Position numbers and translations under genes: made by a program
Notes under the pieces: generated by a model
What the model saw: the letters and a program-made list of their open reading frames with translations, nothing else
What the model was told of the DNA's origin: nothing
Database searches by the model: none
From: Tieghemostelium lacteum
Lineage: Eukaryota; Evosea; Eumycetozoa; Dictyosteliales; Raperosteliaceae
Length of the DNA stretch: 62,166 bases
Direction: 5' to 3'
NCBI GenBank assembly: GCA_001606155.1
Contig: LODT01000033.1
Location: forward strand, 1-62,166
Shown: positions 9,829 through 62,166 of the stretch, piece after piece
Numbering within the stretch: the stretch's first letter is position 1
How the letters are laid out: each line of letters opens with the position of its first letter

Positions 9829-11598
9829 TTATTTATAAAAAATGTATTCTTTAGTTTTGTGTTTGTCAATTCTAACACCTTGAGAAATTAGATATCGAAT
9901 TGAATTATCAGTGAGAAAATCAGGATCTTCAGAAATTTTGATAATTTTGATTTTACTGAGATATTGTTGAATAATTTCTTGTGAAACTGCTTGACTGTCA
10001 TCTTGAAATTTTGGTGCTATTTTGGGATACACTTCACGATAGTCTAAGCCATAATACTTTTCAAATTTGATAACTTCAAGAGTTTCAATGTTTGAGAGGT
10101 ATTGAAATGAATTGTGAGGGAATTTATAATTAGAGATTGTCAAATGTTTGACATGTTGAAGTTGTTTGTATCCTTCACTTGTGATCAATGGACAGTTGAT
10201 AATTGATACTTCTTTGGCATTCCAAAGATATTTCATTGCATTATCATCAATTTTCGAACAAGTTCTCAATTCAATTCTTTCAATTCCATCAAGAAATGAT
10301 ATTCCTTTGGAGGTGATATTGTGGTTTATGAATATCTTAATTGATCTTGTTCCAATGAGATATTGAAGAGTTTCATCATCAATATTTGAGTCAAAAATTG
10401 TGAGATGTTCGAGTGGTCCAATATTTGGATTTCTGTTTGAGAAAATATTGGTGATGAATTTCGATGTTGACCAGCACCGACAATTTGGGTTTATATCAAA
10501 TACTTGAAGATTAGAAAAATCTGAAAAGTATTTTTCCTCAATTTCAAAGTTTTTGATATAAAGATGAGTGATGAATCGTTTTCCTGCTGGAAGATACTGA
10601 ATTTTGTTGAATGCGTGCGTAAGTACTCTGAAATATTGTAAATTGGAAAATGATAATGAATCATATGATTGACACTCTTCAAATCTATCCAAACTTAATG
10701 ATTTAAGTTTTCCACCTCTACATAATATTTCAATATCTTCAGTTTCTATACTATGGCAAATTCTAATTTTAAGTTCTTCCAATTGTGAGAATTCTGAAAT
10801 TGATTTGCCAGTAATTCCATAATGTGTAATATCTCTTAACCAAAGTACTTTGACAATGTCTTTAAAATGAATGAGTCCTTCATCTGTGATATTCTCTCTC
10901 CAACGAGTTAGTTTAAGAATTTCAACTCCACATTCAGAACCTTCAGCTAAATGTTTTAACATTTCATCATCTAGTTTAAGCTTATTTTGCCCTCTTAAAT
11001 TAATCTCTTTCAGATTTGAGAATATTTTGGTTCTGATGAATTTATCAATACGTTTAGATGCCTTGTATTCAAGGGAATCTATGAGAGCTATTCTATTGGT
11101 GAGTGAAGTGATATTGTGAGTTTCAATGTTGAAACCATCATCTGATGTCACACATGACCATTGAGGTGAGTTGTTGAATTTCATCAATGGTTTTGTGTTA
11201 CATATTATACCTTTTGAAAGCATTTTATCAATGATTAATCGATTTCTGATGATATTTGATAAATGATTTATTGTGTTGGAATGTTGAATTTTTGATCTGT
11301 GAATCTCGAGAATATCAACACTTTCAATCAAATTTAATGATTCATCTGTTGGATGGTAAAGTGTCAATTTATGAAATCTATTGATATATTTGAGAATTGA
11401 TATCAATAATTTTGATTCAGGATGACTGAAATCAAGAGTGAAATCAAGAATATCCAATGATCTTGTGATTAATTGTTTGTTGTTTGTTGATGTCAACATT
11501 AATCTGAACAGATCTTGAATTGAATTGATATTCCTCAAAATTTCATTTCTTATTATTTTGTTGTTGAATGATTCTTGAAATTTTACATCATTATTCAT
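9829..11598 (-). CDS. LRR-family protein, copy A
   Basis: 589 residues, single exon, intact. N-terminus MNNDVKFQESFNNKII... is a helical region that might be a divergent F-box (not proven). From about residue 190 come leucine-rich repeats of the Cys-containing FBXL type (e.g. LKEINLRGQNKLKLDDEML, ITDEGLIHFKDIVKVLWL, LEELKIRICHSIETEDI, LKSLSLDRF). C-terminus ends KTKEYIFYK like all paralogues. Variable windows here read DSLEYKASK, LTHAFNKIQYLPAG and REVYPKIAPK. Head-to-head with copy B across the shared SMC4-remnant spacer; its 5' flank (TATTGTATCATAAAATATCG) is the 'type 1' promoter shared with 20418, 37648 and 61380. No membrane segment or signal peptide. Function unknown; a ligand- or substrate-recognition role is inference from the LRR fold. 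Confidence 0.85.
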   Translation of the reverse strand: MNNDVKFQESFNNKIIRNEILRNINSIQDLFRLMLTSTNNKQLITRSLDILDFTLDFSHPESKLLISILKYINRFHKLTLYHPTDESLNLIESVDILEIHRSKIQHSNTINHLSNIIRNRLIIDKMLSKGIICNTKPLMKFNNSPQWSCVTSDDGFNIETHNITSLTNRIALIDSLEYKASKRIDKFIRTKIFSNLKEINLRGQNKLKLDDEMLKHLAEGSECGVEILKLTRWRENITDEGLIHFKDIVKVLWLRDITHYGITGKSISEFSQLEELKIRICHSIETEDIEILCRGGKLKSLSLDRFEECQSYDSLSFSNLQYFRVLTHAFNKIQYLPAGKRFITHLYIKNFEIEEKYFSDFSNLQVFDINPNCRCWSTSKFITNIFSNRNPNIGPLEHLTIFDSNIDDETLQYLIGTRSIKIFINHNITSKGISFLDGIERIELRTCSKIDDNAMKYLWNAKEVSIINCPLITSEGYKQLQHVKHLTISNYKFPHNSFQYLSNIETLEVIKFEKYYGLDYREVYPKIAPKFQDDSQAVSQEIIQQYLSKIKIIKISEDPDFLTDNSIRYLISQGVRIDKHKTKEYIFYK

Positions 11599-12364
11599 TG
11601 TATCTCTATTGTATCATAAAATATCGTTCGTTTTTTAAAAAAAATGAAGTTGATCTGGATTGCACATCTTCATATACAATAGAAATTACAAAAATCTCAA
11701 ATTTATATTAAAAATTCTACTCTAAAAGTGGTCCAACTTCATGAACACCAGAATACGATTTAAAATTTTAAATCTTTGTAATACAACGGTAAAACTTGAG
11801 AAATAACCAAAATCTATAAATTTTGAAAAACTGAAATACAAAACAGAAATAGGTATTTAAATTGATATTAGTTAAAAAGTTGTATATCTGATTTTCTAAT
11901 GAAATGAAGAGTTCATAAATACCAAATATTATCTATTGATATTATTAAGATAAATGCAAATACTTCATTATGATATACAATTGTACAATAAAGTGAATGA
12001 AAAAAAAATTATTTTAATCTTGTATTCCTATAACATAGAATTTAAATAAACTTACAAATATGTAATTCTTAAGACTATTAGCTGTGTAAACTATCTATTT
12101 AATTTATCTATTTTATTATTTTTTGAACAAATTAAAGTTCAAAGACTTAGTTTAAATTTAAACTAACATCAATTTAAAAACATTATAAGTGCAACAAAAT
12201 ACAGTCTTTGTAAAATATTAGAATTTTAGTTAAATAAATTAAAATATTGTTGTGTATTAACACTGTTTTGAGGTATTTGAATCAATTTCAAATTAATAAT
12301 GGTGGCTTTATTGTTTCTACAACATTACTGTCTACCTAATCTTTCTCTTTGGGGTTTAAATTGT
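11599..12364. repeat. Duplicated spacer, left part (unit 1)
   Basis: Promoter-side part of the spacer between LRR copies A and B. The same sequence, inverted, is found at about 19510-20417 and 60670-61379. It is A/T-rich and non-coding. Relative to the other two units this copy has lost the short opposing SMC4 piece next to the type 1 LRR promoter. Confidence 0.7.
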
Positions 12365-13085
12365 CGATGGATTTACTTCTGTAGATTTCTTTAGTCTCCA
12401 TTTGTTGTTGAAGTTGTGGAACTTCACCTTTAACTCAACATGGTCTCTAGCTGCTTCTCTTCATCCACCAATTTCTTTAGCATCTCTAGGAACTCTTTTT
12501 CTCATCTCTTTATATCATTCTGACACTGACCTTGGGTTTATTGATATTTATGACTTCAGCCAATACATCCTTTTCTTTCTCTACAATCTTTATCCTATTC
12601 AGTTTACGTTTTCTTTTATTACTATCTTCAATATCTTTTCCTGTGCGATCAATAGCCTCTACAACTTTTCATTAACCTATAATCTCTTCCAAATAATCCA
12701 ATAGACTTTCATCATGTCCTTGAGATTTTGGTTTCATCATTGCAATAGATTCAACTTCACCCAGTTGTAGAATCATAAATCCATTATTTTCCAAATCAAT
12801 ACTTTCCATTTAGAATAGGTCCAAATCATGCTGTATGTTTTCCAAATGATACTTTGAAGTTGCAGTAAAACCACTTCCATCCTTTTTAAATTTCTTTGTT
12901 ATATATCTAGAAACCACAAATCCTGAACTCTATAATCTCAACTGGCTACAAATTCCCATATTAATACCAACTATATCATTTTCACCAAGTTTAATCTGTT
13001 TAATTTGTTTAGATTTGAAACCAATTACAATAAGCATATCCTCAATGACGTTTGATACCACTACAATTAGGACCAACAACTGAAC
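12365..13085 (-). pseudogene. smc4: SMC4 (condensin) fragment, unit 1
   Basis: Read on the minus strand from 13085: a P-loop-like start VVGPNCSGI, then DMLIVIGF, ITKKFKKDGSGFT, SIDLENNGFMILQ, GEVESIAMMKPKSQGHDESL followed by LDYLEEIIG, and KRKLNRIKIVEKEKDVLAE. This is the N-terminal ATPase head and coiled-coil start of SMC4: the order and wording of the blocks (IDLDNNRFLILQ, GEVEQI..MKPK, LEYLEDIIG, KLNRVK.VEKEK) are characteristic. The Walker A is altered (GPNGSGKS expected, GPNCSGI seen) and several stops and frame changes are present, so it is dead. It is intronless in this piece and lacks the hinge and C-terminal head. The same fragment occurs in two other LRR spacers. Confidence 0.85.
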
Positions 13086-13398
13086 TGAAGTATTTATGAA
13101 ATGGTCCAACTTCTTTTGAACACTTGAATATGATTTAAAATTTCAATTAATTTTAAATCTTTGTAATCATAAGTCTTCTGGTATTAGTCATCGTTGGTGT
13201 GATATTGATAGCTGTGCCAACAGTAACACTCCAGCAAGACTCTAAGAGTAGCTTTTTTTTACTAGTTTGTGAAGAAGAACTGATTTGGTACTTCAGGTTC
13301 CATTTTAATATTTCAACGTACAGTATACTGTATTTGTTTGAAATGAAAATTAAAAAAAAAAATTACAGTGGTATTTTTGTGTGATCCAATGAGATACA

Positions 13399-15156
13399 AT
13401 GAATAATGATGTAAAATTTCAAGAATCATTCAACAACAAAATAATAAGAAATGAAATATTGAGGAATATCAATTCAATTCAAGATCAGTTCAGATTAATG
13501 TTGACATCAACAAACAACAAACAATTAATCACAAGATCATTGGATATTCTTGATTTCACTCTTGATTTCAGTCATCCTGAATCAAAATTATTGATACCAA
13601 TTCTCAAATATATCAATAGATTTCATAAATTGACACTTTACCATCCAACAGATGAATCATTAAATTTGATTGAAAGTGTTGATATTCTCGAGATTCACAG
13701 ATCAAAAATTCAACATTCCAACACCATAAATCATTTATCAAATATCATCAAAAATCGATTAATCATTGATAAAATGCATTCAAAAGGTATAATCTGTAAC
13801 ACAAAACCATTGATGAAATTCAACAACTCACCTCAATGGTCATATGTGACATCAGATGATGGTTTCAACATTGAAACTCACAATATCACTTCAATCACCA
13901 ATAGAATAACTCTCATAAAATACAAGGCATCCAAATGTATTGATAAATTCATCAGAACCAAAATATTCTCAAATCTGAAAGAGATCAATTTAAGATGGCA
14001 AGAAAAGCTTATTCTAGATGATGAAATGTTAAAACATTTAGCTCAAGGTTCTGAATGTGGAATTGAAATTCTAAAACTATCTCGTTGGATGGAGAATATC
14101 ACAGATGAAGGACTCATTCATTTTAAAGACACTGTCAAAGTACTTTGGTTAAGAGAAATGTCACGTTATAGAGTTACTGGCAAATCAATTTCAGAATTCA
14201 CACAATTGGAAGAACTTAAAATTAGAAGATGTAGTCGTATACAAACTGAAAATATTGAAATACTATGTAGAGGTGGAAAACTTAAATCATTAAGTTTGGA
14301 TAGTTTTGAAGAGTGTCAATCATATGATTCATTTTCCAATTTACAATATTTCAGAGTAAATGTGCAAGCAAGCAACAAAATTGAGCATCTTCCACCATCA
14401 GGAAAACAATTCATCACTCATCTTTATATCAAAAAATTTGAAATTGAGGAAAAATACTTTTCAGATTTTTCTAATCTTCAAGTATTTGATATAAACCCAA
14501 ATTGTCGGTGCCGGTCAACATCAAAATTCATCACCAATATTTTCTCAAACAGAAATCCAAATATTGGACCACTCGAACATCTCACAATTTATGACACAAA
14601 TATTGATGATGAAACTCTTCAATATCTCATTGGAACAAGATCAATTAAGATATTCATAAACCACAATATCACCTCCAAAGGAATATCATTTCTTGATGGA
14701 ATTGAAAGAATTGAATTGAGAACTTGTTCGAAAATTGATGATAATGCAATGAAATATCTTTGGAATGCCAAAGCAGTATCAATTATCAACTGTCCATTGA
14801 TCACAAGTGAAGGATACAAACAACTTCAACATGTCAAACATTTGACAATCTCTAATTATAAATTCCCTCACAATTCATTTCAATACCTCTCAAATATTGA
14901 AACTCTTGAAGTTATCAAATTTGAAAAGTATTATGACTTAGACTATCGTGCAAAGCATTACAAAAATACACCAAAATATCAAGATGACAGTCAAGCAGTT
15001 TCACAAGAAATTATTCAACAATATCTCAGTAAAATCAAAATTATCAAAATTTCTGAAGATCCTGATTTTCTCACTGATGATTCAATTCGATATCTAATTT
15101 CTCAAGGTGTTAGAATTGACAATCACAAAACTAAAGAATACATTTTTTATAAATAA
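13399..15156 (+). CDS. LRR-family protein, copy B
   Basis: 585 residues, single exon, intact, ending KEYIFYK. Differs from copy A mainly in the central LRR windows: a four-residue deletion with LIKYKASKC in the first, RWQEKLIL, RWMENITDEG, REMSRYRVTG, CSRIQTENIE, NVQASNKIEHLPPSG, and RAKHYKNTPKY near the C-terminus. Residue 30 is Gln where the others have Leu (SIQDQFRL). Its 5' flank (GATCCAATGAGATACAATG, preceded by a T-rich stretch) is the 'type 2' promoter shared with copies 16894 and 57752. It is convergent with copy C, with LINE debris between their 3' ends. Confidence 0.85.
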   Translation: MNNDVKFQESFNNKIIRNEILRNINSIQDQFRLMLTSTNNKQLITRSLDILDFTLDFSHPESKLLIPILKYINRFHKLTLYHPTDESLNLIESVDILEIHRSKIQHSNTINHLSNIIKNRLIIDKMHSKGIICNTKPLMKFNNSPQWSYVTSDDGFNIETHNITSITNRITLIKYKASKCIDKFIRTKIFSNLKEINLRWQEKLILDDEMLKHLAQGSECGIEILKLSRWMENITDEGLIHFKDTVKVLWLREMSRYRVTGKSISEFTQLEELKIRRCSRIQTENIEILCRGGKLKSLSLDSFEECQSYDSFSNLQYFRVNVQASNKIEHLPPSGKQFITHLYIKKFEIEEKYFSDFSNLQVFDINPNCRCRSTSKFITNIFSNRNPNIGPLEHLTIYDTNIDDETLQYLIGTRSIKIFINHNITSKGISFLDGIERIELRTCSKIDDNAMKYLWNAKAVSIINCPLITSEGYKQLQHVKHLTISNYKFPHNSFQYLSNIETLEVIKFEKYYDLDYRAKHYKNTPKYQDDSQAVSQEIIQQYLSKIKIIKISEDPDFLTDDSIRYLISQGVRIDNHKTKEYIFYK

Positions 15157-15204
15157 ATAAAGTTATTATCAACATTTCTCATCTAACCTCTAATTTTTTT
15201 TTTA

Positions 15205-15700
15205 AAAATTTTAATTATGTTTTTATATTTTGAAGTTTTGTTTATAGGTATTGTTGAATTTGAGTATGGAGAAATTGATTTTGTCTAGATCCCTGTAATT
15301 TGGAAGTGCAAGATTTTGTCTTTAAGGAGTTCTTTTTCTAGATGGATTATATATTTAGGATTTGGTTAAGGGTAGTAGAATTGAACTTAGATGAAGATTG
15401 ATAATATTGTTGATAATCTCATTAAGTGCTTTTTGATTAAAGGGTGTTGATTGAACCAATAGATTTGTATCACCAGTTATTTCTTAAAATTTCTTCAATT
15501 TGGTATTACAATTGTTATTTATATATCAGATTATTAAATTCCTACTTTTTAAAATATTTTATATAATAAATAAAAATAGATGCAAAGAAATCAATATTGG
15601 AATATCATTTTTCAAATTAACATTTTTAGAAGTACTACCAGTGAAAAAATGTTTAAGGTTATCCACAATTTTATTCCATTGACTTGTATCAGAGGCTATA
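15205..15700 (-). mobile_element. LINE fragment (3' end of ORF2), minus strand
   Basis: On the minus strand the sequence reads DTSQWNKIVDNL, then, after non-matching DNA, LTKS..., a LEKELLKDKI-like segment and RDLDKINFS, the same C-terminal words found in the longer LINE piece at 55375-56395. It starts at an oligo-A/T tract (15190-15205) only about 40 bp past the LRR copy B stop, consistent with a 3'-end-anchored, 5'-truncated and later rearranged insertion. No reverse-transcriptase core is present. Family: dictyostelid non-LTR element (TRE-like), assigned by the Cys/His tail of related fragments. Confidence 0.55.
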
Positions 15701-15763
15701 CATGATAATTCACTATTATAGTTATCTGGATATAGGATTGAACGATCAGATTGATAAATTCAA

Positions 15764-15879
15764 TATTGAAAGTGAAAGAAACCAGAAGGTCTTATGATTA
15801 GGAGAAGATACATAAGAGGATAATACCTAGTATCAGATTAATCCCTTTTGCGTAGTGGTTATACCCTCCCTTCATTGCA
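15764..15879 (+). repeat. Dispersed ~120-bp MITE-like repeat, copy 1
   Basis: Best-preserved copy: GAAAGTGAAAGAAACCAGAAG near one end and CCTCCCTTCATTGCA at the other. Other copies lie at 25678-25797 and 57154-57287 (both inverted) with decayed pieces at 8135, 8386 and 9340. The two ends read inward as TG(T/C)AATGAA(A/G)G in the other copies, so they may be imperfect inverted repeats of a small non-autonomous element. The segment TTGCGTAGTGG at 15848-15858 fits the RNA polymerase III A-box pattern at nearly all positions, but no B-box is found. Confidence 0.5.
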
Positions 15880-15899
15880 GATAGTAGTTTGTTGATTAA

Positions 15900-16760: not shown

Positions 16761-16893
16761 AATATTTATTTAAAAACAAATTAAATTCTTTGGATGAGGT
16801 TTCTATTTCATCTTTAGACTCATCAGCACATCAAGAATAAAGAAATCTTCAAATTGTTGGGATTATTTTGAGAAATGTTGAAGGTAACTTTAT

Positions 16894-18663
16894 TTATTTA
16901 TAAAAAATGTATTCTTTAGTTTTATGATTGTCAATTCTAACACCTTGAGAAATTAGATATCGAATTGAATCATCAGTGAGAAAATCAGGATCTTCAGAAA
17001 TTTTGATAATTTTGATTTTACTGAGATATTGTTGAATAATTTCTTGTGAAACTGCTTGACTGTCATCTTGAAATTCTGGTGATATTCCGGTAATCTTATC
17101 ACGATAGTCTAAGTCATAATACTTTTCATATTTGAATACCTCAAGAATTTCAATATTTGAGAGGTGTTGAAATGAATTGTGAGGGAATTTATAATTAGAG
17201 ATTGTCAAATGTTTGACATGTTGAAGTTGTTTGTATCCTTCACTTGTGATCAATGGACAGTTGATAATTGATACTGCTTTGGCATTCCAAAGATATTTCA
17301 TTGCATTGTCATCAATTTTCGAACAAGTTCTCAATTCAATTCTTTCAATTCCATCAAGAAATGATATTCCTTTGGAGGTGATATTGTGGTTTATGAATAT
17401 CTTAATTGATCTTGTTCCAATGAGATATTGAAGAGTTTCATCATCAATATTCGAGTCATAAATTGTGAGATGCTCGAGTGGTCCAATATTTGGATTTCTG
17501 TTTGAGAAAATATTGGTGATGAATTTTGATGTTGACACCAACCGTCTATTTGGGTTTATATCAAATACTTGAAGATTAGAAAAATCTGAAAAGTAATTTT
17601 CCTCTGCGAAAAATTTTTTGATATAAAGATGAGTGATGAATCGTTTTCCTGCTGGTGGAAGGTTTTGAATTTGGTTGTATGGGTGCACTAATACTCTGAA
17701 ATATTGTAAATTGGAAAATGAATCATATGATTGACACTTTTCAAATCTATCCAAACTTAATGATTTAAGTTTTCCACCTCTACATAATATTTCAATATTT
17801 TCAGTTTGTATAGTATAGCATCTTCTAATTTTAAGTTCTTCCAATTGTGTGAATTCTGAAATTGATTTGCCAGTAACTCCAACAAAACTTGACATATCTC
17901 TTAACCAAAGTACCTTGACAGTGTCTTTAAAATGAATTAGACCTTCATCTGTGATATTCTCTCTCCAACGAGATAGTTTAAGAATTTCAATTCCACATTC
18001 AGAACCTTCAGCAAAATGTTTTAACATTTCATCATCTAAATAAAGCCTATTTTGCCATTCTAAATTGATCTCTTTCAGATTTGAGAATATTTTGGTTCTG
18101 ATGAATTTATCAATACAGTCAGATCCTTTGTATTCAAAGGATTCTATGAGATCCTTTCTATTGGTGAGTGAAGTGATATTGTGAGTTTCAATGTTGAAAC
18201 CATCATCTAATGTCACACATGACCATTGAGGTGAGTTGTTGAATTTCATCAATGGTCTTGTGTTACATATTATACCTTTAGAAAACATTTTATCAATGAT
18301 TAATCGATTTCTGATGATATTTGATAAATGATTTGTTGTGTTGGAATGTTGAATTTTTGATCTGTGAATCTCGAGAATATCAACACTTTCAATCAAATTT
18401 AATGATTCATCTGTTGGATGGTAAAGTGTCAATTTATGAAATCTATTGATATATTTGAGAATTGGTATCAATAATTTTGATTCAGGATGACTGAAATCAA
18501 GAGTGAAATCAAGAATATCCAATGATCTTGTGATTAATTGTTTGTTGTTTGTTGATGTCAACATTAATCTGAACAGATCTTGAATCGAATTGATATTTCT
18601 CAAAATTTCCTTTCTTATTATTTTGTTGTTGAATGATTCTTGAAATTTTACATCATTATTCAT
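16894..18663 (-). CDS. LRR-family protein, copy C
   Basis: 589 residues, single exon, intact. N-terminus identical to the other copies except RKEIL for RNEIL; C-terminal KEYIFYK. Variable windows: RKDLIESFEYKGSDC, EWQNRLYL, RDMSSFVGVTG (one extra residue), CYTIQTENIE, LVHPYNQIQNLPPAG, KKFFAEENYF, NRRLVSTSK and RDKITGISPEF. Promoter is type 2. Head-to-head with copy D over the SMC4-remnant spacer, convergent with copy B. Confidence 0.85.
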   Translation of the reverse strand: MNNDVKFQESFNNKIIRKEILRNINSIQDLFRLMLTSTNNKQLITRSLDILDFTLDFSHPESKLLIPILKYINRFHKLTLYHPTDESLNLIESVDILEIHRSKIQHSNTTNHLSNIIRNRLIIDKMFSKGIICNTRPLMKFNNSPQWSCVTLDDGFNIETHNITSLTNRKDLIESFEYKGSDCIDKFIRTKIFSNLKEINLEWQNRLYLDDEMLKHFAEGSECGIEILKLSRWRENITDEGLIHFKDTVKVLWLRDMSSFVGVTGKSISEFTQLEELKIRRCYTIQTENIEILCRGGKLKSLSLDRFEKCQSYDSFSNLQYFRVLVHPYNQIQNLPPAGKRFITHLYIKKFFAEENYFSDFSNLQVFDINPNRRLVSTSKFITNIFSNRNPNIGPLEHLTIYDSNIDDETLQYLIGTRSIKIFINHNITSKGISFLDGIERIELRTCSKIDDNAMKYLWNAKAVSIINCPLITSEGYKQLQHVKHLTISNYKFPHNSFQHLSNIEILEVFKYEKYYDLDYRDKITGISPEFQDDSQAVSQEIIQQYLSKIKIIKISEDPDFLTDDSIRYLISQGVRIDNHKTKEYIFYK

Positions 18664-18999
18664 TGTATCTCATTGGATCACACAAAAAAACCTAAGCATT
18701 TTTTTTTTTAATTTTCATTTCAAACAAATACAGTATACTATACTTTGAAATATTAAAATGGAACCTGAAGTACCAAATCAGTTCTTCTTCACAAACTAGT
18801 AAAAAAAAGCTACTCTAAAAGTATTTACGATGAAGATTAACAATGATGATGGAGTGTTACTGTTGGTACAGCTATCAATATCACACCAACGATGACTAAT
18901 ACCAGAAGACTTATGATTACAAAGATTTAAAATTAATTGAAATTTTAAATCATATTCAAGTGTTCAAAAGAAGTTGGACCATTTCATAAATACTTCAGT
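18664..18999. repeat. Duplicated spacer, type 2 promoter side (unit 2)
   Basis: Shared with 59516-59852 (same orientation) and, inverted, with 13086-13398. Holds a segment at about 18826-18935 (ACGATGAAGAT ... ACCAGAAGACTTATGATTAC) that recurs in direct orientation at about 20158-20250 on the other side of the SMC4 remnant. Non-coding. Confidence 0.7.
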
Positions 19000-19509
19000 T
19001 CAGTTGTTGGTCCTAATTGTAGTGGTATATCAAATGTCATTAAGGATATGCTTTTTATAATTGGTTTCAATTCTAAACAAATTAAACAGATTAAACTTGG
19101 TGATCTAGTTCACAAATCTCAAGATAAAAAGAATCTTACAAATTCACAAGTTTGTATGACAAGGAGAATGATATAGTTGTAGAGGCTATTGATCGTACAG
19201 GAAAAGATATTGAAGATAGTAATAAAAGAAAACGTAAACTGAATAGGATAAAGATTGTAGAGAAAGAAAAGGATGTATTAGCTGAAGTCATAAATATCAA
19301 TAAACCCAAGGTCAGTGTCAGAATGATATAAAGAGATGAGAAAAAGAGTTCCTAGTGATGCTAAAGAAATTGGTGGATGAAGAGAAGCAGCTAGAGACCA
19401 TGTTGAGTTCACTTAAAGGTGAAGTTCAACAACTTCAACAACAAATGGAGACTAAAGAAATCTACAGAAGTAAATCCATGGACAATTTAAACCCCAAAGA
19501 GAAATATTA
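19000..19509 (+). pseudogene. smc4: SMC4 fragment, unit 2 (internally deleted)
   Basis: Plus-strand copy of the SMC4 remnant: VVGPNCSGISNVIKDML with IIGFNSKQIKQIKLGDLVHK, then a jump past the IDLENN...LEEIIG part that units 1 and 3 keep, resuming at VEAIDRTGKDIEDSNKRKRK. It has stops and a deletion of roughly 300 bp relative to unit 3. Dead. Confidence 0.85.
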
Positions 19510-20417
19510 GGTAGACAGTAATGTTGTAGAAACAATAAAGCCACCATTATTTTAATTTGAAATTGATTCAAATACCTCAAAACAGTGTTAATACACAACA
19601 ATATTTTAATTTATTTAACTAAAATTCTAATATTTTACAAAGACTGTATTTTGTTGCACTTATAATGTTTTTAAATTGATGTTAGTTTAAATTTAAACTA
19701 AGTCTTTGAACTTTAATTTGTTTAAAAAATAATAAAATAGATAAATTAAATAGATAGTTTACACAGCTAATAGTCTTAAGAGTTAATTATTTGTAAGTTT
19801 ATTTAAATTCTATGTTATAGGAATACAAGATTAAAATAATTGTTTTTCATTCACTTTATTGTACAATTGTATATCATAATGAAGTATTTGCATTTATCTT
19901 AATACTATCAATAGATAATATTTGGTATTTATGAACTCTTCATTTCATTAGAAAATCAGATATACAACAACTTTTTAACTAATATCAATTAAAATACCTA
20001 TTTCTGTTTTGTATTTCAGTTTTTCAAAATCTTATAGATTTTGGTTATTTCTCAAGTTTTACCGTAATATATTACCATTTTGTTTGTCCATACACTTATT
20101 CATACCAAATCTTCATTTTCTTGAAAATATAAGGAAACTTGTGAATTTGTAAGAGACTTACGATGAAGATAATTGAGTGGTTACTATTGGTTTCAATGTC
20201 ACACCAAAAATGACTGATACCAGAAGACTTATGATTACAAAGATTTAAAATTTTAAATCGTTTTCTGGTGTTTATGAAGTTGGACCACTTTTAGAGAAGA
20301 ATTTTTAATATAAGTTTGAGATTTTTGTAATTTCTATTGTATATGAAGATGTGCAATCCAGATCAACTTCATTTTTTTTAAAAAACGAACGATATTTTAT
20401 GATACAATAGAGATACA
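19510..20417. repeat. Duplicated spacer, type 1 promoter side (unit 2)
   Basis: Non-coding part of the duplicated unit, equivalent to 60670-61379 and, inverted, to 11599-12364. Within it, 20080-20160 on the minus strand encodes a second short SMC4 piece (SLTNSQVSLYFQENEDLV, later WTN), so two SMC4 fragments point towards each other inside the spacer. The last 130 bp are the type 1 LRR promoter (GATATTTTATGATACAATAG). Confidence 0.7.
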
Positions 20418-22113
20418 ATGAATAATGATGTAAAATTTCAAGAATCATTCAACAACAAAATAATAAGAAATGAAATTTTGAGGAATATCAATTCAATTCA
20501 AGATCTGTTCAGATTAATGTTGACATCAACAAACAACAAACAATTAATCACAAGATCATTGGATATTCTTGATTTCACTCTTGATTTCAGTCATCCTGAA
20601 TCAAAATTATTGATATCAATTCTCAAATATATCAATAGATTTCATAAATTGACACTTTACCATCCAACAGATGAATCATTAAATTTGATTGAAAGTGTTG
20701 ATATTCTCGAGATCCACAGATCAAAAATTCAACATTCCAACACAATAAATCATTTATCGAATATCATCAAAAATCCATTAATCATTGATAAAATGCATTC
20801 AAAAGGTATAATCTGTAACACAAAACCATTGATGAAATTCAACAACTCACCTCAATGGTCATGTGTGACATTAGATGATGGTTTCAACATTGAAACTCAC
20901 AATATCACTTCACTCACCAATAGAATAACTCTCATAGAATCCTTTGAATATACAGAATCTGACTGTATTGATAAATTCATCAGAACCAAAATATTCTCAA
21001 ATCTGAAAGAGATCAATTTAGAATGGCAAAATAGGCTTTATTTAGATGATGAAATGTTAAAACATTTAGCTGAAGGTTCTGAATGTGGAATTGAAATTCT
21101 TAAACTATCTTATTGGAGAGAGGATATCACAGATGAAGGACTCATTCATTTTAAAGACACTGTCAAGGTACTTTGGTTAAGAGATATGTCACGTTATGAT
21201 GTTACTGGCAAATCAATTTCAGAATTCACACAATTGGAAGAACTTAAAATTAGAAGATGCCATAGTATACAAACTGAAAATATTGAAAGATTATGTAGAG
21301 GTGGAAAACTTAAATCATTAAGTTTGGATATTTTTGAAAAGTGTCAATCATATGATTCATTTTCCAATTTACAATATTTCAGAGTAATGACGCACGCATT
21401 CAACAAAATTAGACAACTTCCAGCAGGAAAACGATTCATCACTCATCTTTATATCAATAAATTTTTAATAGAGGAAAATTACTTTTCAGATTTTTCTAAT
21501 CTTCAAGTATTTGATGTAAACCCAAATAGACGGTGCTGGACAACATCAAAACTCATCACCAATATTTTCTCAAACAGAAATCCAAATATTGGACCACTCG
21601 AACATCTCACAATTTTTGACTCAAATATTGATGATGAAACTCTTCAATATCTCATTGGAACAAGATCAATTAAGATATTCATAAACCACAATATCACCTC
21701 CAAAGGAATATCATTTCTTGATGGAATTGAAAGAATTGAATTGAGAACTTGTTCGAAAATTGATGACAATGCAATGAAATATCTTTGGAATGCCAAAGCA
21801 GTATCAATTATCAACTGTCCATTGATCACAAGTGAAGGATACAAACAACTTCAACATGTCAAACATTTGACAATCTCTAATTATAAATTCCCTCACAATT
21901 CATTTCAATACCTCTCAAATATTGAAACTCTTGAAGTTATCAAATTTGAAAAGTATTATGACTTAGACTATCGTGAAGAGGATGTCGGAATGGCACCAAA
22001 ATTTCAAGATGACAGTCAAGCAGTTTCACAAGAAATTATTCAACAATATTGATTTTTTTAAACAAATTTTGCTCGATATTCATGATTTTGAAAAAAAACA
22101 TGATTCATGACCT

Positions 22114-23518: not shown

Positions 23519-24654
23519 ATGATTGAAGTGGATCCAATATCAATTAGAAAGTCAACAAGACTCAGGTTCCACAAAAATTATAGATTGAGAAGAATATCAG
23601 CAGCTGCATATTCTTTCTCAAATAAAATTAAAAAGGTAACTGATATAACAGGTCTAAAGTATGGTACTATAAAATATTGGAGAAAAAAAGTAAGGGATAA
23701 CTCCTTCCATAATCAAAAGTGGGGTGGGAGAAGACACTCTCATTTAACAGACAGACAAAGATATGGTGCTGCCAAATTAATTGTCCACATAATTAAATTT
23801 AACCCCACATTCACTGTTAACCAACTAAGGTTAAAACTAATATCATTTGGATTTCATCTAAAAGAAAGGTATTATAATACAATATTTAATTAATTTATCT
23901 CTATTTCATTTACATTTATTTATTTACAAATATATTAATTTATTATTCAATTATTTTATTTTTATTCGTCTACTGTAGTTATATCAGAAAACTATTAAAG
24001 GATATGAATTGGTCTTTTAAAATCCCTGAATATAAACAAATCAATAAATATAGACACGAGAATATGATGTTGTATGCTGGCCATTTGTTTTATACCAATA
24101 CCAATGATTGGTCCAAGTTTGTATTCTTGGACGAGGTTCATTTCAATAGCAGAGATCTCCGTAAGAAAAAGGTACTTGGTCCAAAGAATGATAAAGTCTT
24201 TGTAAAAACCGACACCTGCTTATCCACCAGTTTCTCTATGAGCTCAATGGTTAGGTATGATGGTTCAATGTTTGTTTCTCCATATAGACAAACAAATGAT
24301 CAATTCAATGCAAGAGACTTTATCATAGAAGCCCTCAAATCCAAATTCATATTGCCTGGTGATATATTATTCATGGATAACGCTGCTGTTCACACTGGTT
24401 GTGAAACCTTCCAGGTGTTGTGTTTAGTTCTTGAAGGGTTAAATATCACTTTAAGATTCTTGCCAGCTTATTCTCCTGAGCTCAATCCAATTGAACTATG
24501 TTTTGGGTATGTCAAGAATTTTATTAGAAGACATCGATCTGATCTAGAAATGGATCTCCATGGACTAGTTTCTATTGCTTTTCTTTTACTCTGTCAAAAA
24601 CCAGATACAATTAAATCATTTTTCAAGAAAGCTATTAGAAAATGGCATGATTAA
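23519..24654 (+). CDS. Tc1/mariner-type DDE transposase (two exons)
   Basis: Exon 1 23519-23868, intron 23869-23978 (GTATTA...CTGTAG), exon 2 23979-24654, phase-2 join, 341 residues. The N-terminal 115 residues carry two helix-turn-helix-like parts (KKVTDITGLKYGTIKYWRKK and TVNQLRLKLISFGF), as in paired-type binding domains. Catalytic residues: D168 (VFLDEVHF), D250 (LFMDNAAVHT), E289 (SPELNPIELCFGYVK); 38 residues lie between the second D and the E, against 34 in classical Tc1. The ATG at 23519 is used because the upstream in-frame extension begins with GTG. Frame and triad are intact, so the protein is probably active or recently so. Confidence 0.9.
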
Positions 24655-24956
24655 TAAAAGTCATTAATCATGTTTTTTTTCAAAATCATGAATATCGAGC
24701 AAAATTTGTTTAAAAAAATCAATATCTCAGTAAAATCAAAATTATCAAAATTTTTGAAGATCCTGAGTTTCTCAGTGATGATTCAATTCGATATCTAATT
24801 TCTCAAGGTGTTAGAATTGAAAATCATAAAACTAAAGAATACATTTTTTACAAATAAATAAAGTTACCTTCAACATTTCTCATGGAACCTCTAAATTATA
24901 AACCAAAAGAATTTTGATTCAAGTATTACCATCTTTACATTATATTCAAATATAAT

Positions 24957-25425: not shown

Positions 25426-25427
25426 AT

Positions 25428-25797: not shown

Positions 25798-25844
25798 GTT
25801 TCCATAATTACTCTTGATGTAGGAATTGTAGTACAATGAACTGA

Positions 25845-29890: not shown

Positions 29891-29955
<65 letters not shown>

Positions 29956-55374: not shown

Positions 55375-56395
55375 CTTTAAAATAAAAATAGATGCAAAGA
55401 AATCAATAATGGAATATCATTGTTCAAATTAATTTTAATTTATAAATCTGATCGCGAATTATCAGGTACCTTCAGGTAGGTTAATTACCTATTAAAAGAA
55501 ATCCTAGCCTGATACAAGCCAATGGAATAAAATTGTGGAAACACTCAAACAACACTCACCAATTCAAAAGCACAATCAAATATCTCCAAATCAAAGATAT
55601 TGACTGGAATCCTTCTTCAATACTCAACGTCTCTGAATCTATTTCCACCCACATCTTTTTTGAATGCTTAACAACCACCACTGAATACACCCATCAATTC
55701 AAAAACACATTCAAATACTTCCAACTCAAAGATATTGAATGGACTCCTTCTTCAATTCTCAACATCTACAATAGTAAATATCACATAATTCTAATCAACA
55801 TAATCGCCATCACCTTCAAATCAATCTGGAACAAATGGACATCATTCTCATATACGGACACATCCAATTTAATCAAAATACCTACCCTTAACCAAATCCT
55901 AAATATAATCCACCTAGAAAAAGAACTCCTTAAAGACAAAATCCTGCAACTCCAAATAATTAGAGATCTAGACAAAATCAATTTCTCCATTGTAACTATT
56001 GTAACTAATAGTCTAGAGATAATTAATATATATATAGAATTATATATATATATTAATTATCTCTAGACTATTAGTTACAATAGTTACACTCCATACTCAA
56101 ATTCAACAATTACCTTCAAATCAATACGGAACAAATTGACATCCATCTAAAACTTGGACCCTTCCAACATAATCAAAATTCCAAACATCAACCAAATTCT
56201 AGGTATAATAGAACTAGAAAAGGAGTTACTTAAAGACAAAATACTCCAATTGCAAATCAAAAATGAACAGGACAAAATCGATCTTCTATAAATTCAACAA
56301 AACATACAAACACAATTTTATTATATAAATAAACTCTCAACTGATGTAGGCTTGGTGAGCCTTCTCAGTATTATTAAAGTTTTAAAAAAAATCAT
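55375..56395 (+). mobile_element. Two tandem LINE ORF2 tails with a hairpin at the junction
   Basis: The first part contains SESISTHIFFECLTTTTEYTH, YFQLKDIEWTPSSILNIYNS, ITFKSIWNKWTSFSYTD, LNQILNIIHLEKELLKDKIL; the second, from about 56090, repeats the IWNK-equivalent (SIRNK), NQILGIIELEKELLKDKILQ and a different end. HIFFEC is the post-RT zinc-knuckle. A 534-bp frame (55533-56066) is open but spans only the tail. The 3' end holds a small stem-loop AGGCT-TGGTG-AGCCT (56348-56362), possibly the 3' recognition hairpin of the element, before an A-rich stretch. 5'-truncated, not functional. Confidence 0.7.
55991..56088. repeat. Perfect 46-bp hairpin
   Basis: Two 46-bp arms (55991-56036 and 56043-56088), fully complementary, with a 6-nt loop. 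The arm begins TGTAACTATTGTAACTAATA and ends in alternating TA. It lies exactly between two LINE tails. It could be a template-switch or fold-back product or a tiny inserted element. Confidence 0.95.
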
Positions 56396-57153
56396 CAAAA
56401 TCTTTTATTTTTTATAATAATTCTAATTAATTAAATCATTAATTTCAATAATAAATAATAAATAGAAATCAATAAAAAATCAAAAAATCTTTTGTTTTTT
56501 ACAAATTAACTTATTAAATCCACACATTCATCAGTATCAATTCATAATTTTTGGATAGGATTGATAAAGGGGTGAGTTTGGAGAGGATGTAGGTTTTGAT
56601 TATTATTCTCGAAAATTCCATGATTTGTTTTATATGATAGATATCAGGAGAGGGATAGTAGCTAAAGCAATCGTTATTTAAAACTAAATACCATGCTGTC
56701 TTTTTGAATTTTTAAATTTATGTTTATTAATAAAGTTATTAATAAGCAGAAGTGAGTTGAGAGAGCAATTACTAGGTTGAATATTAATAGAGAGAGAGGA
56801 TGGTTGAGTTTGATGATTTTTTTTAAGATTGAAAGGTTGAGTAGAAACCCGTTCTAATTCTGCTGAAGAGTTTTTATTAATATTGAATTTACAATTTTAG
56901 TTAAAATTGTATTTTATTGTAGATTTTAGAAGTGTGATGGATGTCTTATAATTGAACACATATTATTAAAAAGAGATGCAAAGAATTAAATTATTTTATA
57001 ATATGTTCCATGGTCAATATGGCAATTTTGTTGCTACTACTCTAAAGGGATTAATCGTATATCTTTTTTTAAAAATATTAATTATACTGAGGGAGAGATG
57101 AAATATGTTTTGATTATATTATTTTTTTTTTATGTTCTATGATTGGCTATTGT
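56396..57153. other. Unassigned debris-rich region
   Basis: A/T-rich. On the minus strand between about 56700 and 56890 there is a coding-like Ser/Pro/Asn stretch (LKKNHQTQPSSLSINIQPSN) that may be part of a LINE ORF1, not proven. No other feature recognised. Confidence 0.3.
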
Positions 57154-57287
57154 ATGCAATTAGGAGGGATGTAAGAAAGGGATATTTATAACCACTACGC
57201 AAAAGGGACTAATATGATACTAGGTATCATCCTCTTATGCCTGTCCTTCTCATAAGACCTTCTGGTTTCTTTCACTTTCATTACAAG
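57154..57287 (-). repeat. Dispersed ~120-bp MITE-like repeat, copy 3
   Basis: Complement reads TGTAATGAAAGTGAAAGAAA at one end and carries ACCAGAAGGTCTTATGAGAAG and an intact A-box-like TTGCGTAGTGG. The other end is less clear (TGCAATTAGGAGGGATG on the plus strand). Confidence 0.5.
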
Positions 57288-57429
57288 GGAGATGACTCTG
57301 TTTGTGAGTGTTGGCGTGTTTCATTATTTTTGGTACAACAATTCCTACATCTAGATGGAAAAATCTATTGTTTTGAATTAGATTAAAACAAATGTAAATA
57401 TATCGAACTTAGAGTTTTGGTATTATTAG

Positions 57430-57675
57430 TGTAGAAAAATATTGTTACATGTTCTATTCACACATTGATATCTTGACTATTTGTTATATCAACAGTATAG
57501 CTATTTTCTAAATTGAAAATCTTCACCAACCAAAGAAAAGATAACAGGTTTAACCTCCTTAAGATGTTTAAATATTAAATAAAAACTATTAAAATTACTA
57601 TTAATATAAACAATAGTATCTAAATAGTCTAGAATATACTACTAGTAGATAAGAAAAATCATTCTAAATTTGAAT
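57430..57675. repeat. Extended LRR 3' flank, duplicated (copy G side)
   Basis: Inverted relative to 25428-25677 and related to it over about 240 bp with many small differences. It lacks the LINE insertion seen at 24957-25425 and so marks the empty site. No gene. Confidence 0.65.
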
Positions 57676-57751
57676 GTAAAGATGCTAATACATGAATCAA
57701 AATTCTTTTGGTTATTAGAGGTTAGATAAGAAATGTTGATAATAACTTTAT

Positions 57752-59515
57752 TTATTTGTAAAAAATGTATTCTTTAGTTTTGTGATTGTCAATTCTAACA
57801 CCTTGAGAAATTAGATATCGAATTGAATCATCAGTGAGAAAATCAGGATCTTCAGAAATTTTGATAATTTTGATTTTACTGAGATATTGTTGAATAATTT
57901 CTTGTGAAACTGCTTGACTGTCATCTTGAAATTTTGGTGCCATTCCGACATCCTTTTCACGATAGTCTAAGTGATAATACTTTTCAAATTTGATAACTTC
58001 AAGAGTTTCAATGTTTGAGAGGAATTGAAATGAATTGTGAGGGAATTTATAATTAGAGATTGTCAAATGTTTGACATGTTGAAGTTGTTTGTATCCTTCA
58101 CTTGTGATCAATGGACAGTTGATAATTGATACTTCTTTGGCATTCCAAAGATATTTCATTGCATTGTCATCAATTTTCGAACAAGTTCTCAATTCAATTC
58201 TTTCAATTCCATCAAGAAATGATATTCCTTTGGAGGTGATATTGTGGTTTATGAATATCTTAATTGATCTTGTTCCAATGAGATATTGAAGAATGTCATC
58301 ATCAATATTTGTGTCATAAATTGTGAGATGTTCGAGTGGTCCAATATTTGGATTTCTGTTTGAGAAAATATTGGTGATGAATTTCGATGTTGACAGGCAC
58401 CGTCTATTTGTGTTTATATCAAATACTTGAAGGTTAGAAAATTTAGAAAAGTAATTTTCCTCTACGTCAAATTTTTTGATATAAAGATGAGTGATGAATC
58501 GTTTTCCTGCTGGTGGAAGTTCAGAAATTTGGTTGAATGCGTGCGCAATTACGCTGAAATATTGTAAATTGGATAATGAATCATATGATTGACACTCTCG
58601 AAATCTATCCAAACTTAATGATTTAAGTTTTCCACCTCTACATAGTATTTCAATATCTTCAGTTTCTATACCAAAGCATCTTCTAATTTTAAGTTCTTCC
58701 AATTGTGTGAATTCTGAAATTGATTTGCCAGTAACAAAATAACGTGACATATTTATTAACCAAAGTACTTTGACAGTGTCTTTAAAATGAATTAGTACTT
58801 CATCTGTGATATTCTCCATCCAATGATCTAGTTTAAGAATTTCAATTCCACATTCAGAACCTTCAGCTAAATGTTTTAACATTTCATCATCTAGAATAAG
58901 CTTTTCTTGCCATCTTAAATTGATCTCTTTCAGATTTGAGAATATTTTGGTTCTGATGAATTTATCAATACTGTCAGATGCATTGTATTCAAGGTATTCT
59001 ATGAGAGTTATTCTATTGGTGAGTGAAGTGATATTGTGAGTTTCAATGTTGAAACCATCATCTGATGTCACACATGACCATTGAGGTGAGTTGTTGAATT
59101 TCATCAATGGTTTTGTGTTACAGATTATACCTTTTGAAAATATTTTATCAATGATTAATCGATTTCTGATGATATTCAATAAATGATTTATTGTGTTGGA
59201 ATGTTGAATTTTTGATCTGTGAATCTCGAGAATATCAACACTTTCAATCAAATTTAATGATTCATCTGTTGGATGGTAAAGTGTCAATTTATGAAATCTA
59301 TTGATATATTTGAGAATTGGTCTCAATAATTTTGATTCAGGATGACTGAAATCAAGAGTGAAATCAAGAATATCCAATGATCTTGTGATTAATTGTTTGT
59401 TGTTTGTTGATGTCAACATTAATCTGAATAGATCTGGAATTGAATTGATATTCCTCAAAATTTCATTTCTTATTATTTTGTTGTTGAATGATTCTTGAAA
59501 TTTTACATCATTCAT
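57752..59515 (-). CDS. LRR-family protein, copy G
   Basis: 587 residues, intact, single exon; begins MNDVKF with one Asn fewer than the others, and has SIPDLF for SIQDLF. Variable windows: EYLEYNASDS, RWQEKLIL (as in B), DHWMENITDEV, INMSRYFVTG, CFGIETEDIE, IAHAFNQISELPPAG (as in F), REKDVGMAPKF (near D). Type 2 promoter. Head-to-head with copy H over the third SMC4-remnant spacer. Confidence 0.85.
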   Translation of the reverse strand: MNDVKFQESFNNKIIRNEILRNINSIPDLFRLMLTSTNNKQLITRSLDILDFTLDFSHPESKLLRPILKYINRFHKLTLYHPTDESLNLIESVDILEIHRSKIQHSNTINHLLNIIRNRLIIDKIFSKGIICNTKPLMKFNNSPQWSCVTSDDGFNIETHNITSLTNRITLIEYLEYNASDSIDKFIRTKIFSNLKEINLRWQEKLILDDEMLKHLAEGSECGIEILKLDHWMENITDEVLIHFKDTVKVLWLINMSRYFVTGKSISEFTQLEELKIRRCFGIETEDIEILCRGGKLKSLSLDRFRECQSYDSLSNLQYFSVIAHAFNQISELPPAGKRFITHLYIKKFDVEENYFSKFSNLQVFDINTNRRCLSTSKFITNIFSNRNPNIGPLEHLTIYDTNIDDDILQYLIGTRSIKIFINHNITSKGISFLDGIERIELRTCSKIDDNAMKYLWNAKEVSIINCPLITSEGYKQLQHVKHLTISNYKFPHNSFQFLSNIETLEVIKFEKYYHLDYREKDVGMAPKFQDDSQAVSQEIIQQYLSKIKIIKISEDPDFLTDDSIRYLISQGVRIDNHKTKEYIFYK

Positions 59516-59852
59516 TATATCTCATTGGATCACACAAAAATACCACTGAAATTTTTTTTTTATTTTCATTTCAAACAAATACAGTATACTGTACGTTGAA
59601 ATATTAAAATGGAACTTGAAGTACCAAATCAGTTCTTCTTCCCAAACTAGTAAAAAAAAGCTACTCTAAAAGTATTTACGATGAAGATTAACAATGATGC
59701 TGGAGTGTTACTGTTGGCACAGCTATCAATATCACACCAACGATGACTAATACCAAAAGACTTATGATTACAAAGATTTAAAATTAATTGAAATTTTAAA
59801 TCATATTCAAGAGTTCAAAAGAAGTTGGACCATTTCATAAATACTTCAGTTC
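59516..59852. repeat. Duplicated spacer, type 2 promoter side (unit 3)
   Basis: Same as 18664-18999, in the same orientation, and inverted to 13086-13398. Non-coding, high identity. Confidence 0.7.
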
Positions 59853-60669
59853 AGTTGTTGGTCCTAATTGTAGTGGTATCAAACGTCATTGAGGATATGC
59901 TTATTGTAATTGGTTTCAATTCTAAACAAATTAAACAGATTAAACTTGGTGATCTAGTTCACAAATCTCAAGATAAAAAGAATCTTACAAATTCACAAGT
60001 TTTCAAGAATTCATAAGTGTATGGATAAGGATATAGTTGGTATTAATATGGGAATTTGTAGCCAGTTGAGATTATAGAGTTCAGGATTTGTGGTTTCTAG
60101 ATATATAACAAAGAAATTTAAAAAGGATGGAAGTGGTTTTACTGCAACTTCAAAGTATCATTTGGAAAACATACAGCATGATTTGGACCTATTCTAAATG
60201 GAAAGTATTGATTTGGAAAATAATGGATTTATGATTCTACAACAGGGTGAAGTTGAATCTATTGCAAAGATGAAACCAAAATCTCAAGGACATGATGAGG
60301 TCTATTGGATTATTTGGAAGAGATTATAGTTTAATGAAAAGTTGTAGAGGCTATTGATCGTACAGGAAAAGATATTGAAGATAGTAATAAAAGAAAACGT
60401 AAACTGAATAGGATAAAGATTGTAGAGAAAGAAAAGGATGTATTGGCTGAAGTCATAAATATCAATAAACCCAAGGTCAGTGTCAGAATGATATAAAGAG
60501 ATGAGAAAAAGAGTTCCTGGTGATGCTAAAGAAATTGGTGGATGAAGAGAAGCAGCTAGAGACCATGTTGAGTTAAAGGTGAAGTTCCACAACTTCAACA
60601 ACAAATGGAGACTAAAGAAATCTACAGAAGTAAATCCATGGACAATTTAAACCCCAAAGAGAAATATTA
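59853..60669 (+). pseudogene. smc4: SMC4 fragment, unit 3
   Basis: Reads VVGPNCSGI, MLIVIGFNSKQIKQIKLGDL, KDIVGINMG, SGFVVSRYITKKFKKDGSG, SIDLENNGFMILQQGEVES, KSQGHDE, then EAIDRTGKDIEDSNKRKRK and NRIKIVEKEKDVLAE, with stops and frame changes. It keeps the middle part deleted in unit 2. Dead; N-terminal head and proximal coiled coil only. Confidence 0.85.
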
Positions 60670-61379
60670 GGTAGACAGTAATGTTGTAGAAACAATAAAG
60701 CCACCATTATTAATTTGAAATTGATTCAAATACCTCAAAACAGTGTTAATACACAACAATATTTTAATTTATTTAACTAAAATTCTAATATTTTACAAAG
60801 ACTGTATTTTGTTGCACTTATAATGTTTTTAAATTGATGTTAGTTTAAATTTAAACTAAGTCTTTGAACTTTAATTTGTTCAAAAAAAAAATAAATAGAT
60901 AAATTAAATAGATAGTTTACACAGCTAATAGTCTTAAGAATTTACATATTTGTAAGTTTATTTAAATTCTATGTTTTAGGAATAAAAGATTAAAATAATT
61001 GTTTTTCATTCACTTTACCGTTGTATTACCGTTCTGTTTGTCCATACACTTATTCATACCAAATCTTCATTTTCTTGAAAATATAAGGAAACTTGTGAAT
61101 TTGTAAGAGACTTACGATGAAGATAATTGAGTGGTTACTATTAGTTTCAATGTCACACCAAAAATGACTGATACCAGAAGACTTATGATTACAAAGATTG
61201 TAATGGAAAATTTTAAATCATATTCTGGTGTTCATGAAGTTGGACCACTTTTAGAGTAGAATTTTTATTATAAATTTGAAGATTTTTGTAATTTCTATTG
61301 AATATGAAGATGTGCAATCCAGATCAACTTCATTTTTTTTAAAAAACGAACGATATTTTATGATACAATAGAGATACAA
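60670..61379. repeat. Duplicated spacer, type 1 promoter side (unit 3)
   Basis: Equivalent to 19510-20417 (this copy is about 200 bp shorter). Contains the short opposing SMC4 piece on the minus strand at about 61022-61110 and ends with the type 1 LRR promoter. Confidence 0.7.
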
Positions 61380-62166
61380 TGAATAATGATGTAAAATTTC
61401 AAGAATCATTCAACAACAAAATAATAAGAAATGAAATTTTGAGGAATATCAATTCGATTCAAGATCTGTTCAGATTAATGTTGACATCAACAAACAACAA
61501 ACAATTAATCACAAGATCATTGGATATTCTTGATTTCACTCTTGATTTCAGTCATCCTGAATCAAAATTATTGATACCAATTCTTAAATATATCAATAGA
61601 TTTCATAAGGTGACACTTTACCATCCAACAGATGAATCATTAAATTTGATTGAAAGTGTTGATATTCTCGAGATTCACAGATCAAAAATTCAACATTCCA
61701 ACACAATTAATCATTTATCAAATATCATCAGAAATCGTTTAATCATTGATAAAATGTTTTCAAAAGGTATAATCTGTAACACAAAACCATTGATGAAATT
61801 CAACAACTCACCTCAATGGTCATGTGTGACATTAGATGATGGTTTCAACATTGAAACTCACAATATCACTTCACTCACCAATAGAATAACTCTCATAGAA
61901 TACCTTGAATACAATGCATCTAAACGTATTGATACATTCATCAGAACCAAAATATTCTCAAATCTGAAAGAAATTAATTTAAGATGGCAAAATAAGCTTA
62001 AACTAGATGATGAAATGTTAAAACATTTAGCTGAAGGTTCTGAATGTGGAATTGAAATTCTTAAACTATCTCGTTGGGTAGAGAATATCACAGATGAAGG
62101 ACTCATTCATTTTAAAGACACTGTCAAAGTACTTTGGTTAATAAATATGTCACGTTATTATATTAA
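61380..62166 (+). CDS. LRR-family protein, copy H (cut by the window edge)
   Basis: Begins MNNDVKFQESF at 61380 and stays in frame for 262 codons to the window end. Variable windows so far: EYLEYNASKR, DTFIRTK (Thr for Lys), RWQNKLKL, SRWVENITDEG, INMSRYY. Type 1 promoter. The last bases do not allow a judgement on completeness. Confidence 0.8.

Follow-up and report, generated by a model that had tools for sequence, protein, structure and literature searches.

Plants, animals, and fungi are known to have intracellular recognition repertoires whose repeat surfaces are diversified, and in plant NLR receptors diversifying selection acts at surface residues of the intracellular leucine-rich repeats (LRRs). 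In Podospora, the ten HNWD genes, with het-d and het-e, are described as having four positively selected residues per repeat on an interaction surface and as exchanging sequence between loci (PMC1805685). Nematode F-box families are reported to combine lineage-specific expansion and a conserved adaptor part with a larger number of selected residues in the substrate-binding part (Thomas 2006, as cited in PMC12062965). FNIP-repeat LRR proteins are reported from Dictyostelium (PMC9525666), and an FNIP subclass is listed among Skp1 interactors (PMC9485057). Here, we describe an LRR gene family of the dictyostelid Tieghemostelium lacteum, so far seen only in this species, of which seven long copies lie on a single complete contig (C28, 62,166 bases; hereafter the window). 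In this family, amino acid change is faster than neutral in the loops that leave the strands of repeats 1 to 8 and in one C-terminal loop, and sequence is exchanged between copies, including copies on different contigs.

Results

A search of the genome assembly (23.3 Mb in 43 contigs) listed 12 long copies at 80 to 100% identity, a lower bound: C28 carries seven, C1 three, and C23 two. We name them after their start positions. A model-free count across these 12 copies gave a ratio of nonsynonymous to synonymous change (pN/pS) of 1.78 (interval 1.30–2.51) for residues 166–400 and 2.73 (1.19–16.73) for residues 526–550, with 0.76 (0.46–1.46) for residues 1–160, 0.65 (0.21–3.15) for 401–525, and 1.42 (0.33–4.51) for 551–590. 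Under the M0 codon model, the ratio (omega) was 1.97 for the 235 codons of residues 166–400 (p = 7e-6 versus 1), 1.00 for residues 1–165, and 0.58 for 401–525. Mean omega is not misled by recombination, since 200 neutral simulations of 232 codons with heavy recombination gave a mean of 1.00 and a maximum of 1.33. Site models behaved differently. When M1a/M2a were applied to 40 null data sets in which the tree labelling was drawn anew at random every eight codons, the usual cut-off was passed in 15, and twice the log-likelihood difference (2dL) exceeded 22 in two, with a maximum of 28.0. Because recombination thus yields false positives in these models, we rely on mean omega together with the three segments whose observed 2dL exceeds the simulated maximum, namely residues 241–320 (71.9), 321–400 (71.0), and 526–600 (38.2). 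Residues 1–165 (3.9) and 401–525 (5.6) were not significant. An earlier reading of the window, made from the letters alone (the sequence-only reading), had proposed that surface positions of an LRR solenoid diversify; the proposal is borne out by these values, which in the variable windows are not well below 1, and by the placement of the sites at one point of the repeat.

The proteins have 14 LRR units spaced 20 to 32 residues apart, and the structure model of copy 9829 (9829..11598, minus strand, 589 residues) is a solenoid with a mean predicted local distance difference test (pLDDT) score of 71.3. Onto this model we mapped 27 selected sites (posterior >0.9, residues 190–395), a set that includes sites of segment 166–240, the 2dL of which is below the simulated maximum. 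Of these 27, 22 lie at +1 to +6 after the last LxL strand residue of repeats 1 to 8, that is, right after the strands, with strand anchors and range picked by eye from the alignment. Random placement gave a mean of 6.3 and a maximum of 14 in 5,000 trials, and one of 205 circular shifts reached 22. The strands of the model agree with the LxL anchors, and the autocorrelation of variability along the protein peaks at 24 residues. Rim entropy is 0.83 to 1.54 bits per residue in repeats 1 to 8, 0.35 in repeat 9, and zero in repeats 10 to 13. In copy 9829, the hypervariable rim region of eight consecutive repeats (residues 201–376) occupies 10471..10998 and the five further LRRs (residues 401–510), which are almost constant across copies, occupy 10069..10398. 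A second fast-changing window, outside repeats 1 to 8 and close to the C terminus (residues 516–530, 10009..10053), carries the motif EVYPKI in this copy. The helical N-terminal part (residues 1–50, 11449..11598) is perhaps F-box–like, under the curated cut-off. Silent change was 0.177 at selected codons, a figure biased by the choice of these codons for their variability, 0.082 within three codons of them, and 0.041 elsewhere. This is as expected if old variants have been kept at these places and the remainder homogenised; a local mutation hot spot may also be involved.

The copies are mosaics of one another, as the sequence-only reading had claimed from shared motifs. All the motifs it quoted are present as stated. 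EVYPKI occurs in 9829, 37648, and 53165, and DVGMAPKF in 20418 and 57752; 13399 and 16894 have forms of their own; and 53165 shares QISELPPAG with 57752 and MTHAFN with 20418. The copy it started at 53036 has a TTG there, and the family ATG is at 53165. The pairwise homoplasy index was 0.326, compared to 0.440 (standard deviation 0.010) in 2,000 permutations, none of which was as low (z = −11.6). The fraction of incompatible site pairs rises from ~0.24 at distances below 30 nucleotides to 0.53 beyond 800, a rise already visible within 300 nucleotides and equalled in strength by none of 1,000 permutations. Each of six alignment segments produced its own tree. Of 30 cross-tests, 29 rejected another segment's tree at p < 0.05, the remaining one being segment 241–320 on the tree of 1–165 (p = 0.13). 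In ten variable blocks chosen by eye, the 12 copies display 10 to 12 different versions each. Identical or nearly identical blocks are found across contigs, such as block G of 57752 on C28 and of C23:1771k, with no differences.

The sequence-only reading had attributed the similarity of both ends to gene conversion, which holds at most for parts of the C-terminal third. Silent divergence is 0.052 (0.027–0.080) in residues 1–160, compared with 0.071 (0.050–0.093) in residues 166–400. Conservation of the N-terminal end therefore lies mainly in the amino acid sequence. Only residues 401–525 (0.019; 0.004–0.039) and 551–590 (0.015; 0–0.039) look homogenised, with 0.054 in residues 526–550 between them. 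Nor are the first 160 residues nearly identical throughout the family: 37648 and C1:18182 have in common a diverged stretch at about residues 82–160. A GENECONV-type test of all 66 pairs yielded one run significant after correction, between 13399 and 16894 of the window (residues 30–108, global p = 0.023). Hence, we dropped recent long conversion tracts as an explanation, and exchange tracts are short or old. Intragenic shuffling of repeats in the manner of Podospora was also discarded, because the LRR units of copy 9829 are too unlike one another (nucleotide identity 35% on average, 56% at most). What is exchanged here passes from one copy to the corresponding position of another.

Searched with a family protein, the T. 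lacteum genome returned at least 39 matches (match counts here are lower bounds). The sequence-only reading had counted eight full or nearly full copies in the window; the family is real, with seven long copies and an eighth, of which the contig end at 62166 leaves the N-terminal part only (61379..62166, plus strand). Besides 9829, the long copies are 13399..15156 (plus, 585 residues), 16894..18663 (minus, 589 residues), 20418..22052 (plus), 37648..39459 (minus, 603 residues, of a more diverged subgroup), 53165..54931 (plus, 588 residues from the family ATG), and 57752..59515 (minus, 587 residues). In 20418, the frame stops at residue 544, where family similarity also ends, and the last ~45 residues are missing. 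Each of the 12 long copies is one open frame of 544 to 603 codons. Four protein-database entries of T. lacteum correspond to family copies (DLAC_00683, DLAC_00686, DLAC_00693, and DLAC_06225). There are two cut or partial copies, C28:61379 and C23:1815887, and small fragments, including residues 356–438 with an in-frame stop (8994..9242, plus) and the last 48 residues (24711..24854, plus). Pieces of distant paralogs, at ~25 to 38% identity, are found on C4, C18, C26, C27, C33, C36, and C40; the paralogs read over their full length have the same layout as the family copies. With the N-terminal 57 residues of one paralog, at least 28 places were matched, of which 26 belong to loci of this wider superfamily that other searches also list. 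The window ends within a copy, and C1 (1–26265) is short with copies close to its start; for this reason the assembly probably breaks at the family, and further copies may be missing. A lone degenerate N-terminal piece (C31:296202-296498, L027; 73% identity, three stops) lies far from the clusters. As to the neighbourhood, within 24004–24854 an open reading frame (ORF) with a DDE_3 transposase domain immediately precedes the terminal fragment, and an RVT_1 reverse-transcriptase ORF (L044:1658-3625, C23:1799658-1801625) lies ~1.5 kb downstream of copy C23:1796k. A 630-residue ORF on the minus strand (5432–7324) looks F-box/LRR-like at its start by eye; it had no Pfam match over the cut-off and no match in the family searches made.

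Several copies are arranged head to head, in pairs 9829/13399, 16894/20418, and 57752/61379, and the same arrangement is seen on C1 (1429/4403). A block common to the pair spacers holds the remains of the 5′ part of an SMC gene. Its parent is probably the gene at C14:264601-268000 (L043), which has SMC_N and SMC_hinge domains and is presumably SMC4-like. Similar SMC-gene pieces occur elsewhere in the genome. The block, of ~1 kb, has the SMC piece on the minus strand in the spacer of pair 1 (11599..13398) and is in the opposite orientation in those of pair 2 (18664..20417) and pair 3 (59516..61378). Since the spacers share this block, gene, spacer, and gene were probably duplicated as one unit. 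The genes have one of two types of upstream sequence, depending on the side of the spacer, a division that the coding sequences do not mirror. Mutual conversion of the two arms of a pair is no general rule, their similarity ranking 3, 7, and 60 among 66. A pseudogene-bearing spacer within a duplicated unit offers a local yardstick of change, for which we used the pseudogene plus both upstream regions. Spacers of pairs 1 and 2 differ by 3.0% across 1,505 aligned bases. They differ from that of pair 3 by 7.5% and 9.9% as aligned, or ~1.9% and 3.5% after omission of two 150-column stretches in which pair 3 is unaligned (61 of 140 and 41 to 44 of 78 positions different), and comparisons with the C1 spacer gave 5.4%, 6.1%, and 5.4% as aligned. 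Over residues 166–400, position-equivalent genes differ by 8.7 to 10.1% among window pairs (four comparisons) and by 11.2 to 13.7% from those on C1 (five comparisons).

The products are LRR proteins, with tandem LxxLxL units that form a solenoid in the model. The four window copies scanned were all below the Pfam LRR cut-offs, and one of six paralogs passes for LRR_6 (33 bits versus a cut-off of 23.4). F-box/LRR receptors of ubiquitin ligases head the fold and profile matches; in them, as here, an LRR solenoid follows an adaptor part. Hydropathy detected no membrane segment in the 12 copies (maximum 0.88; no dedicated signal-peptide program was run). We found no match to NB-ARC or NACHT in four copies (E ≤ 10) or six paralogs (E ≤ 1), or to the FNIP/FGxxFN repeat in the same two sets, and the NACHT-plus-WD40 architecture of HNWD proteins is replaced by LRRs. 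The published genome lists 76 IPT/TIG proteins for T. lacteum (PMC4931340). IPT/TIG had no match in the four window copies scanned, so neither these domains nor, by hydropathy, the membrane segment of Tgr proteins (TgrB1/TgrC1) was seen.

Among the matches listed, protein searches returned family members from T. lacteum together with remote proteins, most of them of LRR or F-box/LRR type; the genome searches covered T. lacteum alone, and we found no paper on the family in one open collection searched by titles and abstract starts. Within the genome, a second superfamily cluster of recent copies lies on C4 (341727-346145 and 383354-395929; L025, L026, L031, L033, L036, and L037). Its mean omega is 1.0, and it has an indel-rich stretch at about residues 165–210. 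Site models favour a selected class, with 2dL of 53.3 (four sequences), 26.5 (ungapped columns), and 11.1 (three sequences), values uncalibrated for recombination that come from a set of three to five sequences, one with a broken 5′ part. Of 60 variable residues, 31 fall within positions +1 to +8 counted from the strand (random mean 17.5; 13 of 383 circular shifts do as well), and rim-centred change lies in other repeats, 6 to 8, 11, and 12. Having an omega of 1.0 but a favoured selected class, the cluster was dropped as a plain negative control. Judging from these sequences, the C4 cluster repeats the family's pattern in weaker form, a hint that the wider superfamily may habitually diversify its rims.

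Discussion

The reading we favour, and consider rather probable, is that this young, probably cytosolic and probably F-box/LRR-receptor–like family serves as a recognition repertoire directed against mostly foreign intracellular proteins; the role in recognition and the ligand are what we infer. Each protein would consist of a helical N-terminal adaptor part and a solenoid of ~14 LRRs, probably acting like an F-box/LRR substrate receptor. The variable rim would contact a fast-changing partner protein, and the constant repeats and N terminus a constant cellular partner, for example Skp1 or a cofactor, so that the copies jointly form the repertoire. The most likely targets would be foreign proteins that bacteria, viruses, or other invaders bring into the amoeba, followed by self/non-self partners or rival mobile elements. 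More tentatively, and with less confidence than in the general reading, we suggest that the amoeba may have built an intracellular repertoire of its own on ubiquitin-ligase–type LRR receptors rather than NLRs, in which short rim segments are traded across loci, yielding a dozen combinatorial surfaces on one constant frame, and that clades may differ in which part of the solenoid they aim.

Several observations weigh against a repertoire of F-box/LRR-like receptors. F-box scores in four window copies are 8.8 to 12.6 bits against a cut-off of 20.5, profile comparison of the N terminus with five F-boxes gave a probability of 0.15%, no better than with shuffled columns, and a whole-genome F-box search listed 64 places, none within the family. 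Four kinds of test were made for F-box membership, none clearly supportive. Unrelated LRR proteins rank closely behind F-box/LRR receptors in the fold lists, the mean pLDDT of the model is 71, and anchors and range were chosen by eye. Segment 166–240 has a 2dL of 22.7, under the simulated maximum of 28.0, and a recent pair of the wider superfamily (L028/L029) has a pN of 0.048 versus a pS of 0.104, with no sign of selection. Finally, of the six paralogs that made up its query, one protein search recovered one; members have therefore probably been overlooked, and restriction to T. lacteum is only weakly indicated.

Many copies, diversifying selection, and exchange also fit self/non-self systems, and the rim might instead read polymorphic self markers, keeping related cells together in aggregation; by the genome paper's account, of the kin-recognition pair of D. 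discoideum, tgrB1 is conserved only in group 4 and tgrC1 only in D. discoideum (PMC4931340). We regard such allorecognition as unlikely, since proteins with no membrane segment are not expected to make direct contact at the cell surface, and twelve copies in one genome would be more in keeping with a repertoire than with one self label. It is slightly less likely still that the conflict is intragenomic, the proteins marking transposon or drive products for degradation or belonging to such an element. The DDE_3 ORF beside an LRR fragment, the reverse-transcriptase ORF near C23:1796k, and the SMC relic enclosed by the pairs would agree with this, but the four long copies scanned contain no transposase or reverse-transcriptase domain, and mobile elements are presumably common near gene clusters.

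The two remaining explanations strike us as very improbable. Ordinary decay, in which the family expanded recently while constraint was relaxed and its ends were kept by constraint or recent conversion, would account for the fragments and truncated copies, for the omega of 1.0 in residues 1–165, and for the low silent divergence in parts of the C-terminal third. However, relaxation does not yield an omega of 1.97, above the neutral maximum of 1.33, and does not confine changes to a single point of a 24-residue period; the 12 long copies, moreover, have open frames of 544 to 603 residues. Equally remote is the idea that the mosaics are assembly chimeras of nearly identical copies. The published genome (23.4 Mb) was assembled from 454 reads, aided by fosmid mapping and primer walking, and its 1.5 million reads at 29-fold coverage imply a mean read of ~450 bases (PMC4931340); one contig ends within a copy, and C1 spans only 26 kb. 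Against this, incompatibility rises already inside 300 nucleotides, less than a mean read, and chimeras do not lift amino acid change over silent change.

A recognition repertoire in T. lacteum would be a comparable system in Amoebozoa, in bacteria-eating cells that meet intracellular invaders, built on a different frame. It also comes with a map for testing, in which ~30 named rim residues per protein would be expected to decide binding and the constant part to hold the shared partner.

How does the family compare with known systems? FBXL receptors (FBXL2, FBXL17, SKP2, TIR1, and COI1), its best fold and profile matches, have the same short helical N-terminal part followed by an LRR solenoid and the same LxxLxLxxCxxIT-type repeats; the T. 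lacteum family is unlike them in its F-box below the cut-off, its hypervariable rim, and, among the matches listed, the lack of a close relative outside the species. It shares selection on LRR surface residues with plant NLRs, but four copies and six paralogs had no NB-ARC or NACHT match, and with FNIP-repeat proteins it shares being an LRR family of dictyostelids, but the same sequences had no FNIP match. The nematode F-box families, as reported, likewise combine expansion, a conserved adaptor part, and a positively selected substrate part, which is an FTH domain there and LRRs here (PMC12062965). HNWD proteins, as described, have two things in common with it: in each repeat a few residues at the surface, a placement that in T. 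lacteum is predicted from the model and the LRR pattern, are positively selected, and sequence is exchanged between loci (PMC1805685). They differ in combining WD40 repeats with NACHT and in homogenising and exchanging whole repeats (PMC1805685), whereas in T. lacteum the LRR units within one gene are dissimilar and exchange takes place between copies at equal positions. By analogy, the T. lacteum family appears to work like the HNWD and nematode F-box families while being a member of neither.

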